A stretch of DNA of 42,466 nt, from the NCBI GenBank assembly GCA_013388515.1, contig JACAFC010000190.1, positions 1 to 42,466 on the forward strand, read 5' to 3'. The notes below the pieces were generated by a model. That model saw only the letters and a list, made by a program, of their open reading frames with translations, was not told the DNA's origin and did not search any database. A program made the translations under genes and the position numbers. This document shows, piece by piece, positions 30,639-42,466 of this stretch (its first letter is position 1; the number at the start of each line of letters is the position of its first letter). Source of the DNA: Ignavibacteriaceae bacterium. GTDB taxonomy: Bacteria; Bacteroidota; Ignavibacteria; Ignavibacteriales; Ignavibacteriaceae.

Positions 30639-32528
30639 ATGTCTGAAAAGCAATTATCTGGCGAAGTTTATTATCCAAAACAGCATGTTCTCGATCATGC
30701 AAATGCAAAGTGTCAAACTTTGTACGATTTTGCCCAAAAAGATTACCAAGGATTTTGGGCTAAAGAAGCTGAAAATTTGCACTGGTTTACAAAGTGGAAT
30801 AAGGTACTGGATGATTCCAATAAACCTTTTTATAAATGGTTTGTTGGCGGTAAAACTAATATTGCTTACAATTGCTTAGATGCACATACTCAAACATTCC
30901 GCAGAAACAAATTGGCTTTAATTTGGGAAGGTGAGAAAGGTGAATCTCACTCATATTCTTATTTTGCTTTAAGACGAGAAACTTGCCGGTTTGCGAACGT
31001 TTTAAAAAGTCTGGGTGTAAAGAAAGGTGACAGAGTTACACTTTATATGGGAAGAATTCCTGAACTAATGATAGGCATGCTGGCATGTGCAAGAATTGGC
31101 GCAATCCATTCTGTTGTTTATGGAGGTTTTTCGGTTGAAGCATTGCATGAACGGCTTGAAGACAGCCAGTCAAAAGTTTTAATTGTGGCAGACGGTGCAT
31201 ACCAAAGAGGAAAGATTGTACCTTTGAAACAAATTGCCGATGAAGCGTTACAACGTGCAGCTTCCGTAGAAAGTGTTCTGGTTGTTAAACGAACTGGCGA
31301 ACCTATTAACATGGAAGCAGGAAGAGATATGTGGTATCATGAACTAATGGTGCTTCCAATTGCTGGTAACACATGCAGCATTGAGGAAATGGACGCAGAA
31401 GATCCATTGTTTATGCTGTATACATCAGGTACGACCGGAAAACCAAAAGCAATATTGCACACTCATGGCGGATATATGGTTGGAACTTATACAACCTTAA
31501 AATATGTATTTGATATTCATGAAGATGACAGATTCTGGTGCGCTGCGGATCCCGGGTGGATTACTGGGCATAGCTATATAGTTTATGGACCTTTACTAAA
31601 TGGCGCAACCTCATTCATGTATGAAGGTGCACCAACTCATCCTTATCCTAATCGTTGGTGGCAAATGATTGAAAAGTATGGAATAAACATTCTATACACC
31701 GCTCCAACTGCAATCCGAGGTTTGATGAGATTTGGTGATGCCTGGCCGAACCGCCATGATTTGTCATCACTGCGGTTGCTTGGCAGTGTCGGTGAACCGA
31801 TAAATCCTGAAGCTTGGCGGTGGTATTATAAAACAATTGGAAAAGAAAAATGTCCAATAATGGATACGTGGTGGCAAACCGAAACAGGTATGTTTATGAT
31901 TTCACCAATGCCATGTGTTCCATTGAAGCCAGGTTCTGGAACAAAACCATTCCCGGGGCTTGAAATGGACATTGTAGATGAAGAAGGTAAAAGTGTTAAA
32001 CCAAATGAGGAGGGATTTCTCGTTATCAAAACTCCTTGGCCCGCTATGTTGCGAACAATTTGGAATGATCCTGACCGTTATGTAAATCAATATTGGAGTA
32101 AATATCCTGGAATGTATTTAACAGGTGACTCTGCTCGGAAGGATGAAGATGGATATTACTGGATAATAGGAAGAGTTGATGATGTCATTAAAGTTTCCGG
32201 TTATAGACTTGGAACTGCTGAAATTGAAAGTGCATTGGTCAGCCACCCATCAGTTGCTGAAGCTGCAGCTATTGGATTGCCTCATGATATAAAGGGTAAT
32301 GCAATACATTGTTTTGTAATATTGAAAGCCGGCTTTACGAAAAGTGACAAACTTATCGAAGAACTCAGGCAGCATGTTGGGCATGAAGTAGGTCCGATTG
32401 CCAAACCGGAACTAATAGAGATTGTGGAATCTTTACCAAAAACGAGAAGCGGAAAAATTATGAGGCGTGTATTAAAAGCCAGAGCATTGGGATTAGATCC
32501 CGGAAATTTAAGCACATTAGAAGAATAG
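30639..32528 (+). CDS. acs: Acetyl-CoA synthetase (AMP-forming)
   Basis: This 629-residue enzyme activates acetate with ATP and CoA through an acetyl-AMP intermediate. ANL-family motifs are in order: LYTSGTTGKPKAILHTHGG, the acetate-pocket region FWCAADPGWITGHSYIVYGPL, the GSVGEPINPEAW loop, DTWWQTETG, TGDSARKDEDGYYWIIGR, and the C-terminal SGKIMRR with Lys606, the residue acetylated in regulated Acs enzymes. The tryptophan in DTWWQTETG favours small acyl substrates. It is a little shorter than the roughly 650-residue enterobacterial form. The downstream peptidase gene starts 29 bases later and could be cotranscribed. Confidence 0.95.
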   Translation: MSEKQLSGEVYYPKQHVLDHANAKCQTLYDFAQKDYQGFWAKEAENLHWFTKWNKVLDDSNKPFYKWFVGGKTNIAYNCLDAHTQTFRRNKLALIWEGEKGESHSYSYFALRRETCRFANVLKSLGVKKGDRVTLYMGRIPELMIGMLACARIGAIHSVVYGGFSVEALHERLEDSQSKVLIVADGAYQRGKIVPLKQIADEALQRAASVESVLVVKRTGEPINMEAGRDMWYHELMVLPIAGNTCSIEEMDAEDPLFMLYTSGTTGKPKAILHTHGGYMVGTYTTLKYVFDIHEDDRFWCAADPGWITGHSYIVYGPLLNGATSFMYEGAPTHPYPNRWWQMIEKYGINILYTAPTAIRGLMRFGDAWPNRHDLSSLRLLGSVGEPINPEAWRWYYKTIGKEKCPIMDTWWQTETGMFMISPMPCVPLKPGSGTKPFPGLEMDIVDEEGKSVKPNEEGFLVIKTPWPAMLRTIWNDPDRYVNQYWSKYPGMYLTGDSARKDEDGYYWIIGRVDDVIKVSGYRLGTAEIESALVSHPSVAEAAAIGLPHDIKGNAIHCFVILKAGFTKSDKLIEELRQHVGHEVGPIAKPELIEIVESLPKTRSGKIMRRVLKARALGLDPGNLSTLEE

Positions 32529-32557: not shown

Positions 32558-33862
32558 ATGAACATTATTCAAAATAGGTTTTTCAGGTTCTGTACATTAG
32601 TTTTTTTTGTATTTCAGTTTATCGGATACCCGCAAGATGATGTTGATGAACTTATCTCTTTTTTAAAATCAACAGATGGTATTGAAATCGTTTCAAAAAT
32701 AGAGGATGATAACTTCAAAGTTGTATTAGAGTTACAAGTCGATCAACCTCTTGATCATAAAAACCTTGGAAGCGAAAAATTCAAACAGCAAATTTTTTTA
32801 TCACACCTCGACAAAACGAAGCCAGTTGTTTTTGATTTGGATGGGTATGCAGTTAAAAATCGAACTACTGAACTGACAAAACTTTTAAATTGTAATCAGA
32901 TAATTATAGAGCATCGCTATTTTGGTCAGTCGGTTCCAAGCCCATTTGATTGGAAATATTTGACAATTGAACAAGCAGCAAACGATCATCACAAAATAAT
33001 TGAAATTTTCAAACAGTTTTATACAGGCAAGTTCATTAGCACGGGAATTAGCAAAGGTGGATCTTGCGTTGTGTTTCATAAATATTTTTACCCCACTGAT
33101 ATTGATGCTTCAGTAGCTTACGTCGGCCCGCTCAATTATTCAATTGATGATAATCGTGTTTACGAATGGATTAAATCTGTTTCAATTCCTGAATGCCGAG
33201 AAAAGGTTCATGATTTCCAACGGTTATGTTTAGAAAAGCGGGATGAGATTTATCCGATTTTTTTAGAACATGCTGAAAACAAAAAACTCACCTATAACAT
33301 AGTTGGGTATGAAAAAGCATATGAGTATTCTGTTCTTGAGTATTCTTTTGCTTATTGGCAGTGGAGTAGTGGCGATTGTTCAAAAATTCCGAATGAATTT
33401 TCCTCAACTAAGGAAATTTGGGATCATTTACTTGAGTATGGCGGTGTGAAATATTTTGATGATAGTGATATTACAGTAAATTATCCTTTCTTTTATCAAT
33501 GTTATACTGATTATGGATATTATGCTTACGCTGTTGATGAATTCAAAGATCTTCTTGAATACGCTGATGGTCAAACGCAATTTTTCATTCCAAAAGATTC
33601 TAATCCTGTTTACAATTCACAGTTACTTTGTAGTATTGGTAATTGGGCATCGAATGATGCGGAGAATATTATTTATATTTACGGAGGCAATGATCCTTGG
33701 ACATCAACCGGAGTGTGTTTGACTGGGAGAACAAATTCTCTCAAAATGATTTTAGCTAATGGATCTCATAAAACTAGAATAAAAGATTTTCCAGAAAAAG
33801 ATAAAAAAATTATATACTCCAGGCTGGAGAATTGGCTTGGTATTAAGATAGATCCGAAATAA
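32558..33862 (+). CDS. Secreted S37-type (PS-10-like) serine peptidase
   Basis: The 434-residue protein has an N-terminal signal (about 1-24, FCTLVFFVFQFIGYPQ) and an alpha/beta-hydrolase fold. It shows the Peptidase_S37 pattern: QPLDHKN, IIIEHRYFGQSVPSP at 115-129, YLTIEQAANDHH, the nucleophile Ser165 in TGISKGGS, Asp379 in YGGNDPW and His404 in NGSHKTRI. Characterised S37 enzymes are tripeptidyl aminopeptidases of Streptomyces. Several cysteines in the C-terminal half could form disulfides, fitting an exported enzyme. It is followed by a TonB-dependent receptor and a DUF4249 lipoprotein, which suggests peptide harvesting. Confidence 0.82.
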   Translation: MNIIQNRFFRFCTLVFFVFQFIGYPQDDVDELISFLKSTDGIEIVSKIEDDNFKVVLELQVDQPLDHKNLGSEKFKQQIFLSHLDKTKPVVFDLDGYAVKNRTTELTKLLNCNQIIIEHRYFGQSVPSPFDWKYLTIEQAANDHHKIIEIFKQFYTGKFISTGISKGGSCVVFHKYFYPTDIDASVAYVGPLNYSIDDNRVYEWIKSVSIPECREKVHDFQRLCLEKRDEIYPIFLEHAENKKLTYNIVGYEKAYEYSVLEYSFAYWQWSSGDCSKIPNEFSSTKEIWDHLLEYGGVKYFDDSDITVNYPFFYQCYTDYGYYAYAVDEFKDLLEYADGQTQFFIPKDSNPVYNSQLLCSIGNWASNDAENIIYIYGGNDPWTSTGVCLTGRTNSLKMILANGSHKTRIKDFPEKDKKIIYSRLENWLGIKIDPK

Positions 33863-33924
33863 ATTTGTACAAGTTAAAATTATTAGCGACCTTCAACAAC
33901 TGAAAATGCGGTTTTAAATTTCAC

Positions 33925-36159
33925 GTGATTCCTCAAAAGTTATTTTTATTTACCTTCATAATATTTTTACCCATTCTTTCAAATGAATTAAATGCTCAGA
34001 GTTTTGGTAAACTGCGTGGTTTTGTCACTGATTCCACTAATGGCGAGGCGCTTGCTTATGGAAATGTTTTCATTGCAGAGTTAAACAATGGCGCCTCAAC
34101 AGATGCGCGGGGATATTATATCATCAACAACATTTCGGCGGGAAAAAAATTAAATGTGGTTTTTTCTTATGTGGGGTATCGGACTCAGACAATACAAATT
34201 ACTATAGTTCGTGATGAAATAACCCAGCTAAATGTAGCCCTAGTCCCCGAAAGACTTGAATTACAAACAGTTGAAAAAATTGGTGAAAAAATTCAAGATA
34301 AAAATCCTACAGATATCGGTTTACAAAAATTAACTCTCCGACAGCTTGAAATTCTGCCTAAAGGTGTTGAAACTGATGTTTTTCGTTCTTTAAAATATTT
34401 GCCAGGTGTTCAAGCAACTGGCGATGTATCTGCTAGATACTATGTACGCGGCGGAACTGGTGACCAAAATCTTGTTCTATTAAATGGAGTGACAATTTAT
34501 AATCCATTTCATGCTTTAGGTTTGTTCAGTGTAATCGATCCAGAAATGATTAATAGTGTAGAATTTTATAAAGGTGGATTTGCAGCCGAATACGGAAGCA
34601 GGTTGTCATCGGTATTAAGTGTAATTACTAAAAATGGAAACAAAAATAACTTTTCGCTTAAGGCAAGTTCTAGTTATTTAACCGGCAAAGCTTTGGTGGA
34701 AGGTCCCATTCCACACGGCTCTTTCATGTTTACTGGCAGGAAAAGTTATTCGAATTCTATTCTTAAAAAATTTTTAAATGATAAAAATGTACCAATTGAT
34801 TTTTATGATGCATCTTTCAAAATCAATTATTCAAATCCTGATTTTATTGAGAATGGGAAGTTTTCGTTGTTTGGATTTTTAAGTGGTGATAAACTTAATA
34901 GTGTAAATCCAAAAGAGGAGGATTTTGATTGGTCAACCAATTTAATTGGATTTGAGTGGCTGCAGGTTCATAAAGCACCAATTTATTCGAAAGTGACTGT
35001 ATCACTAAGTCAATTTAACGGAGAAGTGATTCCAAACGAGAGCAAATTAAAGCCAAGAAAAAATGCTGTAAGTGATTTCTCCGGAACGATGGATTTTACT
35101 TACTTGCAGGATAGTGAGGATGAAATTGGTGCAGGATTTCACTTTAAAATATTAAGTACTAACCTAAAAATTGTAAATCAAAAAGGTATAAAATCAGAGA
35201 TTGACTCTTACGGAGGAAACTTTACTCTTTATGGAAAATATCGAGTCCTTCGTTTTGATAATTTTAGCGCTGATGCCGGGCTAAGAATAAACTCGGGATT
35301 AAATTCTTCACAAGGATTTTATTATGAACCAAGGATAAGCATGAATTATCGGCTTTCGCAGGATATTGCATTAAAAGCTGCCTGGGGAATTTATCAGCAG
35401 GAGGTTGTTGCAATTTCAGATGAGAATGAAGTTATCTCACTTTTTGATCCATGGATAATTATTCCAAATTATCTTAATACTTCACAGGCAATTCATTACA
35501 TAGCAGGATTCGACATTGATGTTCTGGAGGATCTATCTCTTAAAGTGGAGGGTTATTACAAAAGAACAATTCATCTTCCTTTTATTAATGAAGAAAAGGC
35601 ATTCGAGTTTGAACCGGATTTGATATCGGGACGAGCGGAGTCTTATGGTTATGAAATCAGTATAAATTATAGTTCTTTACCAGTAATTTTTATTACTTCA
35701 TATTCGTTGGGATACGCCTATAAGCAGCTTGGTAACCATATTTACTATCCCAAGTATGATGTTAGACATTCTTTAAGCACTTCTTTTGAGTACAATTTTT
35801 CTTCTGATTTAAGTGCGAGTATAGTATGGTCTTTTTCTTCAGGTTTACCTTTTACCAGATTAATTGGATATTATGATAAATACTATCTATCAGACCTTTA
35901 TGGTTCTGCACTTTCAAATACTTACTATGAACCGTATCCAATTTTAGGAGATAAGAATATTGGGCGGCTTCCGGTTTACCATCGTTTAGATTTTAATCTC
36001 TCTAAAAAATTCGAATTTAGTTTTTTAAAATTTTACATAGACTTGAATATAATCAACGTGTATAATCGAAAGAACATATTTTACTTTAAACGTGATACAG
36101 GCGAGCGAGTGAACATGCTTCCATTTTTGCCAACTGCAACTTTAAAAATTGAGATATGA
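33925..36159 (+). CDS. TonB-dependent outer-membrane receptor with CarboxypepD_reg-like domain
   Basis: This 744-residue receptor has a signal peptide (1-24, ending NELNAQ). A CarboxypepD_reg-like beta-sandwich follows at about 28-110 (KLRGFVTDSTNGEALAYGNV, then ARGYYIINNISAG). The plug at about 125-225 has YYVRGGTGDQNLVLLNG and GGFAAEYGSRLSSVLSV. The rest is a barrel ending LPFLPTATLKIEI. It is short for a SusC protein and has no SusD neighbour. The gene starts with GTG at 33925, and its final bases overlap the next gene's ATG by four (36156-36159). The transported ligand is not known; gene context points to peptides. Confidence 0.9.
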   Translation: MIPQKLFLFTFIIFLPILSNELNAQSFGKLRGFVTDSTNGEALAYGNVFIAELNNGASTDARGYYIINNISAGKKLNVVFSYVGYRTQTIQITIVRDEITQLNVALVPERLELQTVEKIGEKIQDKNPTDIGLQKLTLRQLEILPKGVETDVFRSLKYLPGVQATGDVSARYYVRGGTGDQNLVLLNGVTIYNPFHALGLFSVIDPEMINSVEFYKGGFAAEYGSRLSSVLSVITKNGNKNNFSLKASSSYLTGKALVEGPIPHGSFMFTGRKSYSNSILKKFLNDKNVPIDFYDASFKINYSNPDFIENGKFSLFGFLSGDKLNSVNPKEEDFDWSTNLIGFEWLQVHKAPIYSKVTVSLSQFNGEVIPNESKLKPRKNAVSDFSGTMDFTYLQDSEDEIGAGFHFKILSTNLKIVNQKGIKSEIDSYGGNFTLYGKYRVLRFDNFSADAGLRINSGLNSSQGFYYEPRISMNYRLSQDIALKAAWGIYQQEVVAISDENEVISLFDPWIIIPNYLNTSQAIHYIAGFDIDVLEDLSLKVEGYYKRTIHLPFINEEKAFEFEPDLISGRAESYGYEISINYSSLPVIFITSYSLGYAYKQLGNHIYYPKYDVRHSLSTSFEYNFSSDLSASIVWSFSSGLPFTRLIGYYDKYYLSDLYGSALSNTYYEPYPILGDKNIGRLPVYHRLDFNLSKKFEFSFLKFYIDLNIINVYNRKNIFYFKRDTGERVNMLPFLPTATLKIEI

Positions 36160-37106
36160 AGAAAACTATATTTCTACTAACAATGGGAATGATTTTTTGG
36201 TCTTGTGAGGAAGATTTTAATCCGTATGGTGAATTTAAAGAAAAATTTATCCTAAATTGTGTTTTACGAGGAGACTCTACATTTCAGTTAGCATCTTTAA
36301 CAAAAAGCTACAATCCCTCAACCTTCAATCCAAATGTTGTTTCAGAAGATGCTTCAATATATGGTGCAGATGTCAGAGTCAGAATCGGTGATTCAGTCTA
36401 TATTTTTAGTGATAGTATAGTAAATAGAGCGGACACAACCCGGTACAAAACTCCATTTCATTTTTATTTTCATGATTATATTGATTTACCAGCAAATAAG
36501 GATTTAGAACTTGAAGTATTGCTTCCAAGCGGACAAAGACTAACCTCCTTAACAAAAACTCCACAAAAGGTGCAATTTGATCAGCGAAGTGAAGATGTTA
36601 TCTCGGAAGATTCACCAAATTTTTTACAATTTTTTTGGAATATTTCATTTACTGGTCAATACTTCGCTCCACGTTTAATATTCAAATATTCAAAAACAAA
36701 TAATGGTTCCACTCAGGTGATGATTAAGGAAGTTCCTATAAGTGATTTATTTGAAGGAGGGTTAGCTGAACATACTATTTCTGTTCAATCAACTCTTAAT
36801 GTTGAAATGCAGTCGATAAGGAAAGCACTTGAAGAAATTTCAGCTGGTGATCCCAATAAAGCTAATTATACAATTTATGAATCTGCTTTAGTTCAAGTTT
36901 TAGCTTTTGATCAAAATCTCTCACGGTATTATTCAACAACGAATGGATCATTAGATGATTTAACTGTTAGAATTGATGAAAAAGATTACTCAAACATTAA
37001 TGGCGGGTATGGAATATTCGCTTCTTATATTAAAGGAGAGTATAAAATCAAATTTCTTTCATCATTTATACAATCCTTCGGTTACAAAATTTTGATTTCA
37101 AATTAG
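36156..37106 (+). CDS. DUF4249-family lipoprotein
   Basis: The 316-residue protein has a lipoprotein signal with the lipobox at IFWSC (Cys17), followed by EEDFNPYGEFKEKFILNCVL and an extended beta-rich body. This fits DUF4249, a Bacteroidota family of cell-surface lipoproteins usually encoded immediately after a TonB-dependent receptor. The four-base ATGA overlap with the receptor gene indicates coupled translation and probably a shared complex. The biochemical role is unknown; a substrate-capturing lid or partner is inferred by analogy with SusD. Confidence 0.85.
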   Translation: MKKTIFLLTMGMIFWSCEEDFNPYGEFKEKFILNCVLRGDSTFQLASLTKSYNPSTFNPNVVSEDASIYGADVRVRIGDSVYIFSDSIVNRADTTRYKTPFHFYFHDYIDLPANKDLELEVLLPSGQRLTSLTKTPQKVQFDQRSEDVISEDSPNFLQFFWNISFTGQYFAPRLIFKYSKTNNGSTQVMIKEVPISDLFEGGLAEHTISVQSTLNVEMQSIRKALEEISAGDPNKANYTIYESALVQVLAFDQNLSRYYSTTNGSLDDLTVRIDEKDYSNINGGYGIFASYIKGEYKIKFLSSFIQSFGYKILISN

Positions 37107-37117
37107 CTTTTTTGGAT

Positions 37118-38584
37118 ATGCATAAAGTGAATATGATTAGAAATACCATTTACTTTTTAATACTATTCATCATTGCGTTAGTTTTACCTTCCTGCGAAAA
37201 AGATGTAACATTAACTTCGGCTGATGAAGTGATTCATTTTGGTTTCATTTATGTTGACTCATATCCACAAGGCGCAGCAATTTATCAAAATGGAAAAAAT
37301 ACAGGCCGATTTACACCTGATAGTTTGAGGTACCTGCCAAGCGGCGATTATTTACTTACTCTTAAAATGAAATATTTTAGAGATACTAGCATAAGTCTGC
37401 AGCTCAAAGAACCTGAATTGAAGTCTTATTTTATAGACTATTTTTCTAATCCGGCTATGCTTGGAAGTATTAATTTTACATCAGATCCAACAGGAGCTAA
37501 AATAATACTTAATGATTCTGATCTAAATGTTGTAACTCCAACAATTTTAATGAATCTTAAACCTGGCAGCTACAAAGTCAAGTTCAAAAAAGCTAATCAT
37601 CGGGATGCAAACATTGTGACAATAGTTGAAAGCAATCGGATGTCCTCTTCATATTTCAAGTTGAGAGATACATCCAAATGGGTTGATTATCAAATATCTA
37701 ATTCAAATATCTCATCCAATCACTTAACATGCATTGCTGTTGATCAAAATAATATTAAATGGATTGGCAGTTATGATAAAGGATTGCTGAGATATGATGG
37801 AATTAATTTTACCAGTTTTTCTTCAGATAAATCACCACTTCCTAGCAACAATATCACATGTCTTTCAATTGATAATCAAAATAGTCTATGGATTGGTACT
37901 GACGCTGGTCTTGCTAAATATAAAAATGACATTTGGAATGTCTATACAAAAAATAACTCCGGATTAAATAATAACAACATTTCCACCATTGAATTTGAAG
38001 GTAATGTTGTTTGGATAGGTACACCTGTAGGATTAGCTAAGTATGATGGTTCTGTTTGGATTTTGTACGATACAATTATTACTAGACCCTCAGTCAATTA
38101 TGCGGCTGTAAATGATATAGCAATAGATAATTTAGGAAATAAGTGGCTGGCTACGGCTTCAACGGGCATATTTAAATTTAATAATGGATTTTGGGGAACT
38201 GCCTATACTGATTCGATATCGAATATTCCATCAAATAATCTTACTTCCAATGCTGTTTCCACTGATGGGGAGATTTGGTTTGGCCATTTACCAGGTATAG
38301 GAAAGAGGGGAGGTCTATCAATTTTTAAAAATCACGTTTGGAAGAATATTTTTATTGGTTCTGATGTAAACCTTATTGAGGATATTTATATTGATGACTC
38401 AAATACCAAATGGGTTTCCACTGTTGAAGGTCTGTCCCAAATTGTTGGTGAATCGCCGCTTTTCTTTTATAATCGGAATAATTCTTTGATAAGCTATTCA
38501 CATATTAAAGCAGTAGTTAGGGATAACGATGGAATATTATGGATTGCTACTTTTGGAGGCGGTTTGAATAAGTTTAAACTATGA
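37118..38584 (+). CDS. PEGA-domain lipoprotein with seven-bladed Reg_prop-type propeller
   Basis: With ATG 37118 the protein is 488 residues. Its lipobox is VLPSC (Cys26). Two PEGA-like domains follow at about 41-97 (YVDSYPQGAAIYQNGKNTG) and 116-171 (GSINFTSDPTGAKIILND). Seven repeats of a W[ILVF][GAS] motif come next, with tryptophans at 215, 258, 299, 343, 387, 432 and 475, a period of about 43 residues. This is the pattern of a complete two-component-regulator-type propeller, but no histidine kinase domain is attached. The upstream TTG at 37112 is an alternative start, as is ATG 37133. It is the last gene of the S37-receptor-DUF4249 run, suggesting a surface-anchored binding component. Confidence 0.8.
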   Translation: MHKVNMIRNTIYFLILFIIALVLPSCEKDVTLTSADEVIHFGFIYVDSYPQGAAIYQNGKNTGRFTPDSLRYLPSGDYLLTLKMKYFRDTSISLQLKEPELKSYFIDYFSNPAMLGSINFTSDPTGAKIILNDSDLNVVTPTILMNLKPGSYKVKFKKANHRDANIVTIVESNRMSSSYFKLRDTSKWVDYQISNSNISSNHLTCIAVDQNNIKWIGSYDKGLLRYDGINFTSFSSDKSPLPSNNITCLSIDNQNSLWIGTDAGLAKYKNDIWNVYTKNNSGLNNNNISTIEFEGNVVWIGTPVGLAKYDGSVWILYDTIITRPSVNYAAVNDIAIDNLGNKWLATASTGIFKFNNGFWGTAYTDSISNIPSNNLTSNAVSTDGEIWFGHLPGIGKRGGLSIFKNHVWKNIFIGSDVNLIEDIYIDDSNTKWVSTVEGLSQIVGESPLFFYNRNNSLISYSHIKAVVRDNDGILWIATFGGGLNKFKL

Positions 38585-38699: not shown

Positions 38700-39890
38700 G
38701 TGGAAACTAAAAACATAGACTTAAACACTCTAAAAATTGACAGATCAGAAACAAAACGTCCGCCTGACAGAAATAAAAAAATTATTACAAGAAGTTTAAT
38801 CACAGTAATAATTTTAGCTTTAGCTTATTTTGGCTATCAGTATGTAAATTCACTTATAGTTAAAAAAGAGGAAGTAAAACTTACTACAGTAACTTTTCAA
38901 ACAAGTTCATATTCAAGTGCAATACTTAATGCAAGCGGTTATGTTGTTGCTCAACGAAAAGCTGCTGTAGCATCAAAAGGAACTGGGCGTTTGGTATTTC
39001 TTGGTGTAGTTGAAGGTGATAAGGTTAAGAAAGATCAAATTATTGCGCGGCTTGAGGATAACGATATTAAAGCCCAGCTTGATCAAGCTAAAGCTAATCT
39101 AAAATTAGCTGAAGCAGATTTGAAGGATGCAGAGAATTTTTTTAGGAGACAGAAAGAATTATTTACAAAGCAATTGGTATCTGAGCAAGAATATGAGATT
39201 GCAGAAGCACGTTACAACAGAACCCTTGCTACAATTGATCTTGCAAAAGCACAGGTAACTGCTGCTGAGGTCGCTTTAGAAAATACATTGATAAGATCAC
39301 CATTTGATGGAACCGTTTTAACTAAGAACGCCGATGTTGGTGAAATCGTTTCACCATTTGGTGCAAGTATAAATTCGCGTGCTGCAGTTGTTACTATGGC
39401 TGATATGACCTCACTGCAAGTTGAAACTGATGTGTCTGAATCCAACATCGAAAAAATAATTCTGAATCAAGAGTGTGAAATTGTTTTGGATGCTTATCCT
39501 GATAAAAGTTATCCAGGCTACGTTGCCAAAATTGTTCCTACTGCAGATAGATCAAAAGCTACGGTTCTGGTTAAGGTTGGATTTAAAGAATATGACAGCC
39601 GTGTTCTGCCTGAAATGAGTGCAAAGGTTGCGTTCTTAATGCAAGATAAAGCTGAAGATAAAGATAAAGAGAAGCCAATTTTATTAGTTCCTTCTTCATC
39701 GGTTGGAAAAAGAAGCGGGCGTGATGTTGTGTTTGTTGTTAAGGATGACAAAGCAGTTGAAATACCCATACAACTCGGAAGAAAATTTGGTGATGATTTT
39801 GAGATCATTTCTGGTATTGATGCCGGTGAAAGTATTATTGAAAAACTGACAGAAAAAATAAAAGACGGTACTGAAGTAAAAGTTTTATAA
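38700..39890 (+). CDS. Periplasmic membrane-fusion protein of an ABC exporter (MacA-like)
   Basis: This 396-residue adaptor has a basic N-terminus and one inner-membrane helix (about 28-48). A lipoyl-like half-motif follows (ILNASGYVVAQRKAAVASKGTGRL), then a coiled-coil hairpin at about 120-195 (LDQAKANLKLAEADLKDAEN and downstream). The second lipoyl half is NTLIRSPFDGTVLTKNADVGE, and a C-terminal barrel domain ends the protein. The start is GTG 38700, preceded by AGGA. It is followed by an ATPase and two FtsX-type permeases, so it bridges an ABC transporter to an outer-membrane channel not in this window. The substrate is unknown. Confidence 0.88.
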   Translation: METKNIDLNTLKIDRSETKRPPDRNKKIITRSLITVIILALAYFGYQYVNSLIVKKEEVKLTTVTFQTSSYSSAILNASGYVVAQRKAAVASKGTGRLVFLGVVEGDKVKKDQIIARLEDNDIKAQLDQAKANLKLAEADLKDAENFFRRQKELFTKQLVSEQEYEIAEARYNRTLATIDLAKAQVTAAEVALENTLIRSPFDGTVLTKNADVGEIVSPFGASINSRAAVVTMADMTSLQVETDVSESNIEKIILNQECEIVLDAYPDKSYPGYVAKIVPTADRSKATVLVKVGFKEYDSRVLPEMSAKVAFLMQDKAEDKDKEKPILLVPSSSVGKRSGRDVVFVVKDDKAVEIPIQLGRKFGDDFEIISGIDAGESIIEKLTEKIKDGTEVKVL

Positions 39891-39913
39891 TATTAAATTG
39901 TGTAGGAGTTTAA

Positions 39914-40591
39914 ATGTCCGAGCTAATTCAAGTACAAAACGTTTCTAAATCTTATTGGCGCGATAGTTTTGAGATTCCCGTGCTCAACAACCTATCTTTA
40001 AGTGTTAAGCAAGGTGAATTCATGGCTTTAATGGGGCCTTCGGGTTCCGGAAAAACAACATTGTTAAACCTCATTGCTGGTATTGATAAGCCAAGCTCAG
40101 GAAAAGTATTTGTTTCTGGTACAGAAATTTCAAACCTTGGCGAATCTTCGCTTGCTAAATGGCGGGCAAACAACATTGGTTTTATATTTCAATTTTATAA
40201 TCTAATCCCTGTGCTTACAGCTTTTGAAAATGTCGAACTTCCTCTTCTCTTAACAAAACTTTCAAAAGAAGAAAGGAAGAAACACGTTGAAAATGTTCTA
40301 AATATTGTTGGCTTAGGTAATCACATGCAGCATTATCCTAAACAGTTATCGGGTGGACAGGAGCAAAGAGTAGCAATTGCTCGTGCTGTGGTAACTGATC
40401 CAGTATTACTTGTTGCCGATGAACCAACGGGGGATTTGGATCGAAATTCTGCAACGGAGATTTTAACTCTTCTTGAAAGATTAAACAAAGAGTTTAATAA
40501 AACCATAGTAATGGTTACTCACGATCCCCATGCCGCCGAAAGAGCAAGTGTTGTTCGTCATCTTGAAAAAGGTGATTTGGTAGGAGCTTAA
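39914..40591 (+). CDS. ABC transporter ATP-binding protein (LolD/MacB class)
   Basis: The 225-residue ATPase has Walker A GPSGSGKTT at 41-49, Q-loop QFYNLIP at 93-99, signature LSGGQ at 145-149, Walker B LLVADEP with Glu170, and the H-loop THD. The motif DEPTGDLD is typical of the LolD/MacB/FtsE group, which drives mechanotransmission rather than classical transport. A TAGGAG ribosome binding site lies before the ATG. It starts 23 bases after the adaptor gene. Confidence 0.94.
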   Translation: MSELIQVQNVSKSYWRDSFEIPVLNNLSLSVKQGEFMALMGPSGSGKTTLLNLIAGIDKPSSGKVFVSGTEISNLGESSLAKWRANNIGFIFQFYNLIPVLTAFENVELPLLLTKLSKEERKKHVENVLNIVGLGNHMQHYPKQLSGGQEQRVAIARAVVTDPVLLVADEPTGDLDRNSATEILTLLERLNKEFNKTIVMVTHDPHAAERASVVRHLEKGDLVGA

Positions 40592-40592
40592 C

Positions 40593-41753
40593 ATGAAAGT
40601 CTTTAAATTAATTTTTAAGAATGCACTAAGACATAAACTCCGGACTTTTCTTACGATTCTTGGAATAATGATTGCCGTTATAGCGTTTGGCGTTTTAAGA
40701 ACAGTGGTTACTATCTGGGATTCAAGTGTTGATGCTGCTTCAGCTAATCGTTTAATTACAAGGCAATCAGTTTCGTTTATTTTTCCTTTGCCTTATGCTT
40801 ATAAGGAAAAAATTAAAAGTGTTCCCGGCGTTCAAGATGTTAGTTTTGCCAATTGGTTTGGCGGAGTATATAAGGATAAAAATAATTTCTTTGCACGTCT
40901 TGCTGTAGATGCTGAAACCATTTTTGATGTTATGCCAGAGTTCCTAATTACCCCTGAAGAACTTGAGGCATTTAAGAAAGAGCGTAACTCATGCGTAATA
41001 GGTGCTGATATTGCTAAGCAGTACAACATTAAGCTTGGTGATGTAATGACTCTTGAAGGAGATATTTATCCCGGCAGATGGGATTTTATAGTTCGAGGCA
41101 TTTACCGCCCGCAAAATAAAAATACTGATGATACACAAATGCTTTTCCACTGGCAATACGTTGACGAAAGAATGAAAATTGAATCTCCAGCGCGTACTGG
41201 GTTGGTTGGTTGGTACATAGTCGAGATTAAAGATCCAAACAAGTCTGCTGCCATCTCAAATCAGATAGATGCATTATTCAAAAATTCATCTGCAGAAACT
41301 AAAACTGAAACTGAGAAAGCATTTACTCAAGGATTTGTTGCTGCTTCAAGTGCAATTATAACTGCTATGAATCTTATGTCATTCGTTATCATAGGAATAA
41401 TAATGTTGGTTCTCGCAAACACAATGGTAATGGCTGCAAGAGAAAGGACAAGGGAATACGCAGTATTTAAAACTTTAGGTTTCTCGACTTTTCATTTAAC
41501 TGGATTGATACTTGGTGAGTCCTTATTGATTTCAATCCTGGGTGGTGGAATAGGGATTGCTTTAACTTATCCAATCGTGGCTGGGTTTGAACAAGCTATG
41601 CCTAAAGGGTTCTTCCCATTCTTCTATATCGAACCGATTACGACAATCATGGCCTTGAGTGCTGCAATACTTATTGGAATAATTGCTGCAGTTTTTCCAA
41701 TTCATAGAACTCTAAAGACTAAAATTGTTGAAGGCTTCAGATTTGTAGGATAA
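40593..41753 (+). CDS. FtsX-like/MacB-type ABC permease
   Basis: This 386-residue permease has one N-terminal helix (about 15-37, FLTILGIMIAVIAFGVLRTVV). A large periplasmic core domain follows, with PGVQDVSFANWFGG and an SCVIGADIAKQYNIKLGD segment. Three C-terminal helices (about 255-282, 303-331 and 345-372) complete the four-helix MacB/FtsX topology. The coupling segment AARERTREYAVFKTLGFS is present. It starts one base after the ATPase stop, with AGGAG in the end of that gene. Confidence 0.92.
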   Translation: MKVFKLIFKNALRHKLRTFLTILGIMIAVIAFGVLRTVVTIWDSSVDAASANRLITRQSVSFIFPLPYAYKEKIKSVPGVQDVSFANWFGGVYKDKNNFFARLAVDAETIFDVMPEFLITPEELEAFKKERNSCVIGADIAKQYNIKLGDVMTLEGDIYPGRWDFIVRGIYRPQNKNTDDTQMLFHWQYVDERMKIESPARTGLVGWYIVEIKDPNKSAAISNQIDALFKNSSAETKTETEKAFTQGFVAASSAIITAMNLMSFVIIGIIMLVLANTMVMAARERTREYAVFKTLGFSTFHLTGLILGESLLISILGGGIGIALTYPIVAGFEQAMPKGFFPFFYIEPITTIMALSAAILIGIIAAVFPIHRTLKTKIVEGFRFVG

Positions 41754-41767
41754 AACGAGAGAATAAA

Positions 41768-42466
41768 ATGAAAATACCTTTTAAATATACTTTCAGAAAT
41801 TTCAAAACCAGGAAACTAACTGCAGTCATTACGGTAACAGGTATAGCTTTAGTTGTTTTTGTTTTTACCGCAGCGTTAATGATGGCTTATGGTGTAGAAA
41901 AAACTTTAGTAGCAACTGGTTCACCGGATAATGTTATGATTCTTCGAAAATCATCTCAAGGAGAAATTACAAGTATTATTGACGGCGACATTCAAAATGT
42001 AGTACGTACACTTCCTCACATTGCTAAATCTCCTGAAGGTAATTTATTAATTTCTCCTGAACCGGTTGTGATTATCAACCTTGAAATTAAAAAGGGAGGA
42101 ATGAGCAATATTACTGTCCGAGGTGTTTCGCAAATGGTTTATCAGCTTAGGCCGCAAGTAAAAATTGTTTCCGGCAGATTATTTAATCCTTCTTTAAGAG
42201 AATTGATTGTAGGTAAATCAATCAACAAAAAATTTGATGGAACTAATATTGGAGATAAAATAAAATTCGCCGGCGACAATTGGACAATCGTGGGCATATT
42301 TGAAGCAAACGGCAGCGGTTTTGAGTCCGAGTTTTGGGGAGATTATCAGCAGCTACTAAGTGCTTTTAATCGAAGTACGGCAGTTTCAACATTAACTTTA
42401 AAGTTAGATGATGTGAAGAATTTTGATAAGTTCAAAAGAGCTTTTGATTCCGATCGGCGATTACTG
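41768..42466 (+). CDS. Second FtsX-like/MacB-type ABC permease (cut by window edge)
   Basis: From ATG 41768 the frame is open for 233 codons to the window end. It begins MKIPFKYTFRNFKTRKLTAV, then a membrane helix (about 18-41), then a periplasmic domain with VSGRLFNPSLRELIVGKSINKKF and GDNWTIVGIFEANGSGFESE. This is the MacB-type periplasmic core; the three C-terminal helices are outside the window. It follows the first permease by 14 bases, so the exporter probably uses a permease heterodimer with the shared ATPase. Confidence 0.88.
   Translation, partial: MKIPFKYTFRNFKTRKLTAVITVTGIALVVFVFTAALMMAYGVEKTLVATGSPDNVMILRKSSQGEITSIIDGDIQNVVRTLPHIAKSPEGNLLISPEPVVIINLEIKKGGMSNITVRGVSQMVYQLRPQVKIVSGRLFNPSLRELIVGKSINKKFDGTNIGDKIKFAGDNWTIVGIFEANGSGFESEFWGDYQQLLSAFNRSTAVSTLTLKLDDVKNFDKFKRAFDSDRRLL

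Follow-up and report, generated by a model that had tools for sequence, protein, structure and literature searches.

Probable lipoprotein-assisted TonB-dependent transport by a conserved three-gene cassette that is joined by an S37 peptidase in two bacterial lineages

Introduction

Do four neighbouring genes of an Ignavibacteriaceae bacterium, encoding an S37 peptidase (S), a TonB receptor (T), a DUF4249 lipoprotein (D) and a lipoprotein that combines PEGA domains with a seven-bladed propeller (P), belong together as a locus for the capture of peptides? A first-pass annotation had suggested this and likened the set to a polysaccharide utilisation locus (PUL) that works on peptides. Here, we conclude that T-D-P is a conserved cassette, arranged like an operon, that probably encodes a TonB-dependent transporter assisted by lipoproteins; S has been added to it in two lineages only. 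A role of the locus in peptide capture is possible.

Architecture of the locus

The window, i.e., the whole 42,466-nucleotide stretch that was analysed, is contig C49 of an assembly comprising 3.89 Mb in 293 contigs. All four genes reside on its forward strand, and the open reading frames and Pfam families named by the first-pass annotation were found again. The gene for S, an exported S37-family peptidase of 434 aa and an optional member of the locus (32558..33862, PF05576), is followed by those for T, a TonB-dependent outer-membrane receptor of 744 aa (33925..36159, Pfam CarbopepD_reg_2, PF13715, and Plug, PF07715), D, a DUF4249 lipoprotein of 316 aa and the proposed partner or lid of T (36156..37106, PF14054), and P, a lipoprotein that joins a pair of PEGA domains to a propeller of seven blades (37112..38584, Pfam PEGA and Reg_prop). 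The GTG start of T and the overlap of four bases between T and D, both claimed earlier, are borne out by the coordinates. S and T are separated by 62 bp, and D and P by 5 bp. The acetyl-CoA synthetase gene acs (30639..32528, forward strand, Pfam AMP-binding) ends 29 bp before S, and genes for MacA/ABC/FtsX-type export (38700..41753, forward strand, recognised by domain matches) begin 115 bp behind P. We place both flanks outside the unit: in the sister genome G001, acs lies directly 5' of macA, and the export genes are kept there without S, T, D and P. The spacing in the window would also allow S to be co-read with the upstream acs. Translation of P probably begins further downstream than the annotated TTG start (37112), because in-frame ATG codons at 37118 and 37133, either of which could be the real start, both precede the lipobox.

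Scans of the window for promoters and terminators gave results near chance (53 against 46.4 and 11 against 7.2, respectively), and neither the gap between S and T nor that between D and P contained a site resembling a terminator. When 34 of the 35 open reading frames of at least 150 aa in the window were scanned by profile, leaving aside the truncated last one (41768-42466), neither a SusD nor a glycoside hydrolase was detected, just as the first-pass annotation had it.

Conservation of the T-D-P cassette

We surveyed 59 genomes, the source genome and 58 relatives, by searching the proteins of each and then comparing gene positions. All 90 matches to D and all 17 matches to S were used, along with the best 76 for T and the best 56 for P, picked by hand. 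Matches to T were kept from 520 bits upwards (the next one scored 269), and those to P from 152 bits upwards and matching from the N-terminal part; the next matches in line for P cover the propeller only.

Among the matches listed for the 59 genomes, 73 of the 76 T-subfamily genes have a D gene within 3 kb on the same strand, and the three others all sit at contig ends, as judged from their coordinates and, for two of them, from the length of the contig. Gaps between T and D are mostly shorter than 40 bp. Seen from D, a T gene is nearby in 79 of 90 cases, the remaining 11 D genes being located at contig ends or elsewhere. P with its PEGA part occurs within 4 kb of D or T in 51 of 56 instances among the matches listed, and follows D directly on its 3' side (<300 bp) at 36 of the 90 D genes; many copies consist of the T-D pair alone, without P. 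The order T-D-P is present in three families of the window's order. Of 395 genomes drawn across the phylum, with at most three candidates scored per genome, 27 matched P at E ≤ 1e-35; 26 of these, all from the window's order, have full-length P, and in the single one from outside the match is limited to the propeller. Once acs has been corrected for, P distances still follow T distances (partial r 0.38, reached by 2 of 2000 permutations, with 20 of 28 T-D-P loci usable). The adjacency of T and D, the position of P 3' of D and the restriction of full-length P to one order identify T-D-P as a real cassette. The first-pass annotation had looked to co-occurrence in relatives, and for T, D and P this was found, the genes not being scattered and their order being kept across the three families. 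Its pore, surface partner and scaffold thus recur together without SusD, whereas S does not recur as their constant cutter.

Multiplied genes were also seen. P genes often occur in tandem behind one receptor, as T-D-P-P or T-D-P-P-P (the latter at L047), and DUF4249 genes do so as T-D-D-D (G046:C132); L050, L041 and L062 are further loci with tandem copies of one or the other gene. The tandem PEGA-propeller or DUF4249 copies suggest diversified surface binders.

The lipoproteins D and P

D, the sole DUF4249 gene found in the source genome, reaches 43 bits against the curated Pfam cutoff of 28.5 (E 5.6e-11). Its lipobox cysteine (Cys17) is invariant in 24 of 24 aligned sequences, and so is that of P (Cys28) in 20 of 20; in both proteins, acidic residues stand behind the cysteine. 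A lipobox cysteine followed by acidic residues serves as an export signal of surface lipoproteins. D and P fit this signal, and both may be exposed at the cell surface. A simple lipobox pattern matched 41 of 47 D and 36 of 45 P sequences; inspection by eye showed that the misses mostly do have the cysteine or were called with too early a start.

The predicted fold of D consists of two beta-sandwiches (pLDDT 83). A structure-profile search found no solved structure related to DUF4249, Foldseek matched the model to double sandwiches of the cytokine-receptor type, and the best result with VIA-align (Z 7.9, 97 residues, rmsd 3.0) falls in the background range, so that the structure comparisons yielded no clear fold relative. 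As there is neither a solved relative nor a clear fold match, it is solely the genomic pairing with T that suggests a lid role for D.

For P, Pfam detected only PEGA, in two stretches, and Reg_prop at E ≤ 0.01. The predicted structure (mean pLDDT 89) contains two PEGA-like sandwiches and seven blades, as counted from the strand list, with the propeller closing at residues 190-193, in agreement with the domain composition that had been claimed for this protein. The propeller aligns with 3v9f over 284 residues (Z 34.4, rmsd 2.2); what it best matches in fold are hybrid two-component sensors of Bacteroides, in their outer domains, and not BtuG or XusB. Structures of BtuG, XusB and SusD were absent among the matches listed for the D or P folds, which carries no weight against a relationship. 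P also hits the NCBIfam model for PorZ, but with a score of only 76 where the cutoff is 260.

The receptor T

The named close relatives of T stem from metagenome-assembled genomes (MAGs) of Ignavibacteriales, Ignavibacteriaceae and Melioribacter. T has the size of an ordinary TonB receptor, not that of SusC, and scores 63.9 bits with the SusC model TIGR04056, well short of the cutoff of 368.25. By profile, its best solved relative is the siderophore transporter XusA (9gbc, E 4.7e-17), with a match confined to residues 7-251. Both this relationship and the receptor's size speak for a somewhat unlikely reading in which T-D-P imports a scarce non-peptide ligand, be it a siderophore, a corrinoid or another small molecule, in the manner of XusAB or BtuBG, and in which S is unrelated. 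However, the match with XusA comprises nothing but the N-terminal regulatory domain and the plug and thus tells little about the substrate. Furthermore, an Rfam scan was negative for the window, where neither a cobalamin riboswitch nor any other family matched; the corresponding regions of seven relatives yielded two tRNAs and nothing else. Import of vitamin B12 was rejected as a specific candidate because the riboswitch was missing from the window and the seven regions alike.

The peptidase S and its genomic company

S matches the Pfam S37 family over nearly the whole protein (191.8 bits, cutoff 27, E 2.3e-56). Its catalytic motifs GISKGG, GGNDPW and GSHKTRI are intact; by likeness to S28, we take them to represent the Ser/Asp/His triad. 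The Pfam match and a signal peptide agree with the earlier claim of a secreted S37 peptidase, and since the signal peptide comes without a lipobox, S could reside either in the periplasm or outside the cell. Two S37 relatives, L171 (G020) and L173 (G012), have a lipobox-like cysteine, and the enzyme would hence be membrane-anchored in some relatives. The S37 family, with PS-10 as a member, is listed as post-proline cleaving (PMC9147577).

Across the order, 49 of 164 genomes contain S, in 53 copies, and the surroundings of all 53 were examined, several being cut by contig ends. On the strand of S and no more than 6 kb away, 16 of the 53 copies have a proline dehydrogenase or aldehyde dehydrogenase cluster member. 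These clusters often include DHDPS-family and aminotransferase genes, and six contain an M24 peptidase; EamA, aldehyde dehydrogenase and M24 are further Pfam families encountered beside S in relatives. The type of proline dehydrogenase found in S clusters is present in 9 of the 17 S genomes compared with 6 of the 42 others (p 0.006, uncorrected for kinship), according to a list of 15 genomes compiled by hand from matches of about 214 bits or more. Taken together with the post-proline class of S37, the proline-gene company makes S plausibly a proline-peptide enzyme, a function read here from sequence and gene neighbourhood.

At L176, L177, L179-L181, L225, L232, L233, L238 and L248, S37 closes an apparent cluster for the catabolism of proline, or perhaps hydroxyproline. 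Peptide-ABC permeases were considered as neighbours of S and dismissed, as Pfam instead showed proline dehydrogenase, the DHDPS family and aminotransferase V. Genes for DUF2721, Leu/Phe-tRNA-protein transferase and fructose-bisphosphate aldolase recur near S, yet look like plain synteny, and recurrence alone was therefore not read as a sign of function.

Do the four genes then constitute one peptide-utilisation locus, in which S cuts, P and D capture and T imports proline-containing oligopeptides? The post-proline cleavage listed for S37 in PMC9147577 counts in favour, as does the company of S elsewhere, with genes for proline dehydrogenase, DHDPS-family enzymes, aldehyde dehydrogenase and M24 peptidase nearby. 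So does the fact that all six S-bearing genomes of genus g27 retain T-D-P-S with tight spacing (-4 to 29 bp between P and S; in one of them, T lies beyond or is cut at the contig end). Together with S-T-D-P in the window, these are the only seven of the 49 S-bearing genomes in which S adjoins T-D-P; in the other 42, S is located apart from it. Moreover, 18 of the 31 genomes with T-D-P (of 59, from a list compiled by hand) have no match to S, both the window genome and G027 lack the proline dehydrogenase type that accompanies S elsewhere, and S in the window has no surface anchor. We consider a single four-gene peptide locus unlikely on balance. As S joins T-D-P in only two genera, the four-part arrangement is no general unit, and the co-occurrence expected in relatives fails for S in most genomes. 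The first-pass proposals of a cutter and of a peptide analogue of a PUL are thus upheld as far as a post-proline peptidase with intact motifs is plausible, and not as far as they imply a general four-gene unit.

History of the linkage

In a tree of 52 of the 53 S copies (one short copy was left out), the seven S linked to T-D-P form one clade with a support of 100/100. T of the window pairs with T of G016 (99/97), a common clade of window and g27 T was rejected (p-AU 0.0001), and acs places the window genus with G004/G029, not with g27. For g27 S as one clade, p-AU was 0.222, and the nesting of the window S inside g27 is not firm. One S clade in the company of separate T lineages implies that S and T-D-P met twice or were reshuffled, such that S either came to or stayed with more than one T-D-P lineage, on the opposite side in each case. 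That S stands beside T-D-P of another lineage in the window is a further point in favour of the peptide locus.

The same-genus sister G001 offers a view of a loss. Here, acs is directly followed by macA (L153, G001:C12:6000-20000), and the protein searches in the 59 genomes found no S, no D and, among the matches listed, no T subfamily in this genome. The gap between acs and macA consists of 65 bp and then, in frame, NIKWITTFGRGLNKLNL-stop, to be compared with the C-terminus of P, GILWIATFGGGLNKFKL-stop. This P relic has a coding score of 44 versus 23 for the best of 500 shuffles, while the 65 bp before it are unlike S, T and D (score 19, shuffles mean 21.5). The relic indicates that the ancestor had at least P at this place and that the block was lost by deletion. 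Because a single deletion takes neighbours together, the scar in G001 shows descent, not shared function.

Across many genomes, acs faces a convergent operon with genes for citrate lyase, citrate lyase beta, MmgE/PrpD, aconitase and isocitrate dehydrogenase (L031-L033, L037, L043, L046, L047, L049, L052, L055, L065 and others). The interval between acs and citF contains T-D-P in several genomes and other genes or none in the rest, namely nothing, little or other genes in G014, G020, G001, G038, G042 and G050, and T-D-P is also found outside the interval. We therefore read the interval as a shared chromosomal place. A direct link of T-D-P to acs or to the citrate lyase operon (citrate import) was set aside because the acs-citF synteny exists without T-D-P in those six genomes and many T-D-P loci are situated in other places, although some functional link may exist.

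The same interval leads to an alternative for which we see an appreciable, though less than even, chance: the region from acs to citrate lyase and aconitase takes up varied genes, S is a passenger, and S and T-D-P merely co-reside. In addition to the six genomes just listed, our main argument for it is that the interval houses S, a patatin gene, macA-ABC-ftsX and T-D-P in varying combinations; in G029, about 4 kb separate S from acs, and T-D-P is missing there. On the other hand, S points the same way as T-D-P and is closely spaced with it in seven of seven cases, on either side of the cassette, and the presence of S and P per genome is weakly associated (13 of 17 versus 18 of 42, p 0.024, without correction for kinship). 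For the two genera concerned, a passenger S is at least as likely as a four-part peptide locus.

Proposed mechanism

For the T-D-P cassette, we propose the following mode of action. T would form a gated outer-membrane pore, D would be its obligate partner, a lipoprotein at the cell surface that probably sits over T as a cover, and P would act as a second surface lipoprotein, whose PEGA stalk carries a seven-bladed propeller that captures or presents the ligand. A ligand bound outside by P and/or D would be passed to T and pulled in by the action of TonB. S, an exported and probably post-proline exopeptidase added in the window lineage and genus g27 only, could shorten proline-containing peptides in these lineages, either ahead of import or afterwards. 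Both the action of S on the substrate of T-D-P and the class of that substrate are what we infer.

A more daring version is quite unlikely in our view. It holds that T-D-P is an order-specific, three-part importer with PEGA-propeller capture, in which a PEGA-stalked seven-bladed propeller, as a new type of ligand-capturing lipoprotein, works with a DUF4249 lid, and that S37 was recruited twice for proline-rich peptides, joining once per cassette side in two genera and creating a SusD-free analogue of a PUL.

If T-D-P is indeed a lipoprotein-assisted transporter, the PEGA-propeller family joins the lipoprotein partners of TonB transporters, and one Ignavibacteria-like order possesses a defined uptake cassette with a substrate open to experiment. 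The S37 linkage would then supply a concrete guess at the substrate, proline-rich peptides, which is seldom available. The scar in G001 and the acs-citF interval provide dated gain and loss events by which the worth of the cassette to its host can be gauged.

Comparison with known systems

Outer-membrane receptor and surface lipoproteins are features shared with SusCD. Membership in this class or in PULs was rejected, with neither SusD nor a glycoside hydrolase present and T far below the SusC cutoff. S resembles the S37 peptidase PS-10 in its almost full-length Pfam match and its Ser/Asp/His motifs, but belongs to a group without a characterised member, such that its post-proline cleavage is putative.

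In BtuBG and XusAB, TonB transporters are capped by lids that are seven-bladed propeller lipoproteins (PMC10404256, PMC13142918), and P, with its confidently predicted fold (pLDDT 89), shares the trait of a seven-bladed propeller lipoprotein. BtuB-BtuG(-BtuH) likewise unites a TonB receptor, a propeller lipoprotein of this kind and another surface lipoprotein (PMC10404256). Here, however, the propeller of P is of the sensor type and is preceded by a PEGA pair at the N-terminus, D is a DUF4249 protein, and the search for a cobalamin riboswitch was negative. XusA-XusB shares the CarboxypepD-like N-terminal domain of the receptor and the propeller lipoprotein lid; XusB is a DUF4374 protein according to PMC13142918, whereas P matches PEGA and Reg_prop only.

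A known parallel to the T-D pair is BT2172/BT2173 of Bacteroides thetaiotaomicron. In PMC11003636, this TonB transporter and its DUF4249 partner are described as a conserved operon found in dozens of genera, disruption of either gene has similar consequences, and a preprint cited there proposes that the DUF4249 partner acts as a lid. The adjoining genes for TonB receptor and DUF4249 protein are the same here; the difference is that many loci have a PEGA-propeller lipoprotein gene next in line and, in rare cases, a peptidase gene as well. In the open-licence literature, we found no report of a PEGA-propeller lipoprotein as a third partner of a TonB transporter, nor of an S37 peptidase combined with a TonB/DUF4249/propeller set. 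The first-pass annotation knew of no description of the exact combination; in that literature, the same goes for the P partner and the S37 link but not for the T-D pair. The locus most likely encodes a DUF4249-type lipoprotein-assisted TonB transporter, already known in its T-D half, with an added PEGA-propeller partner.
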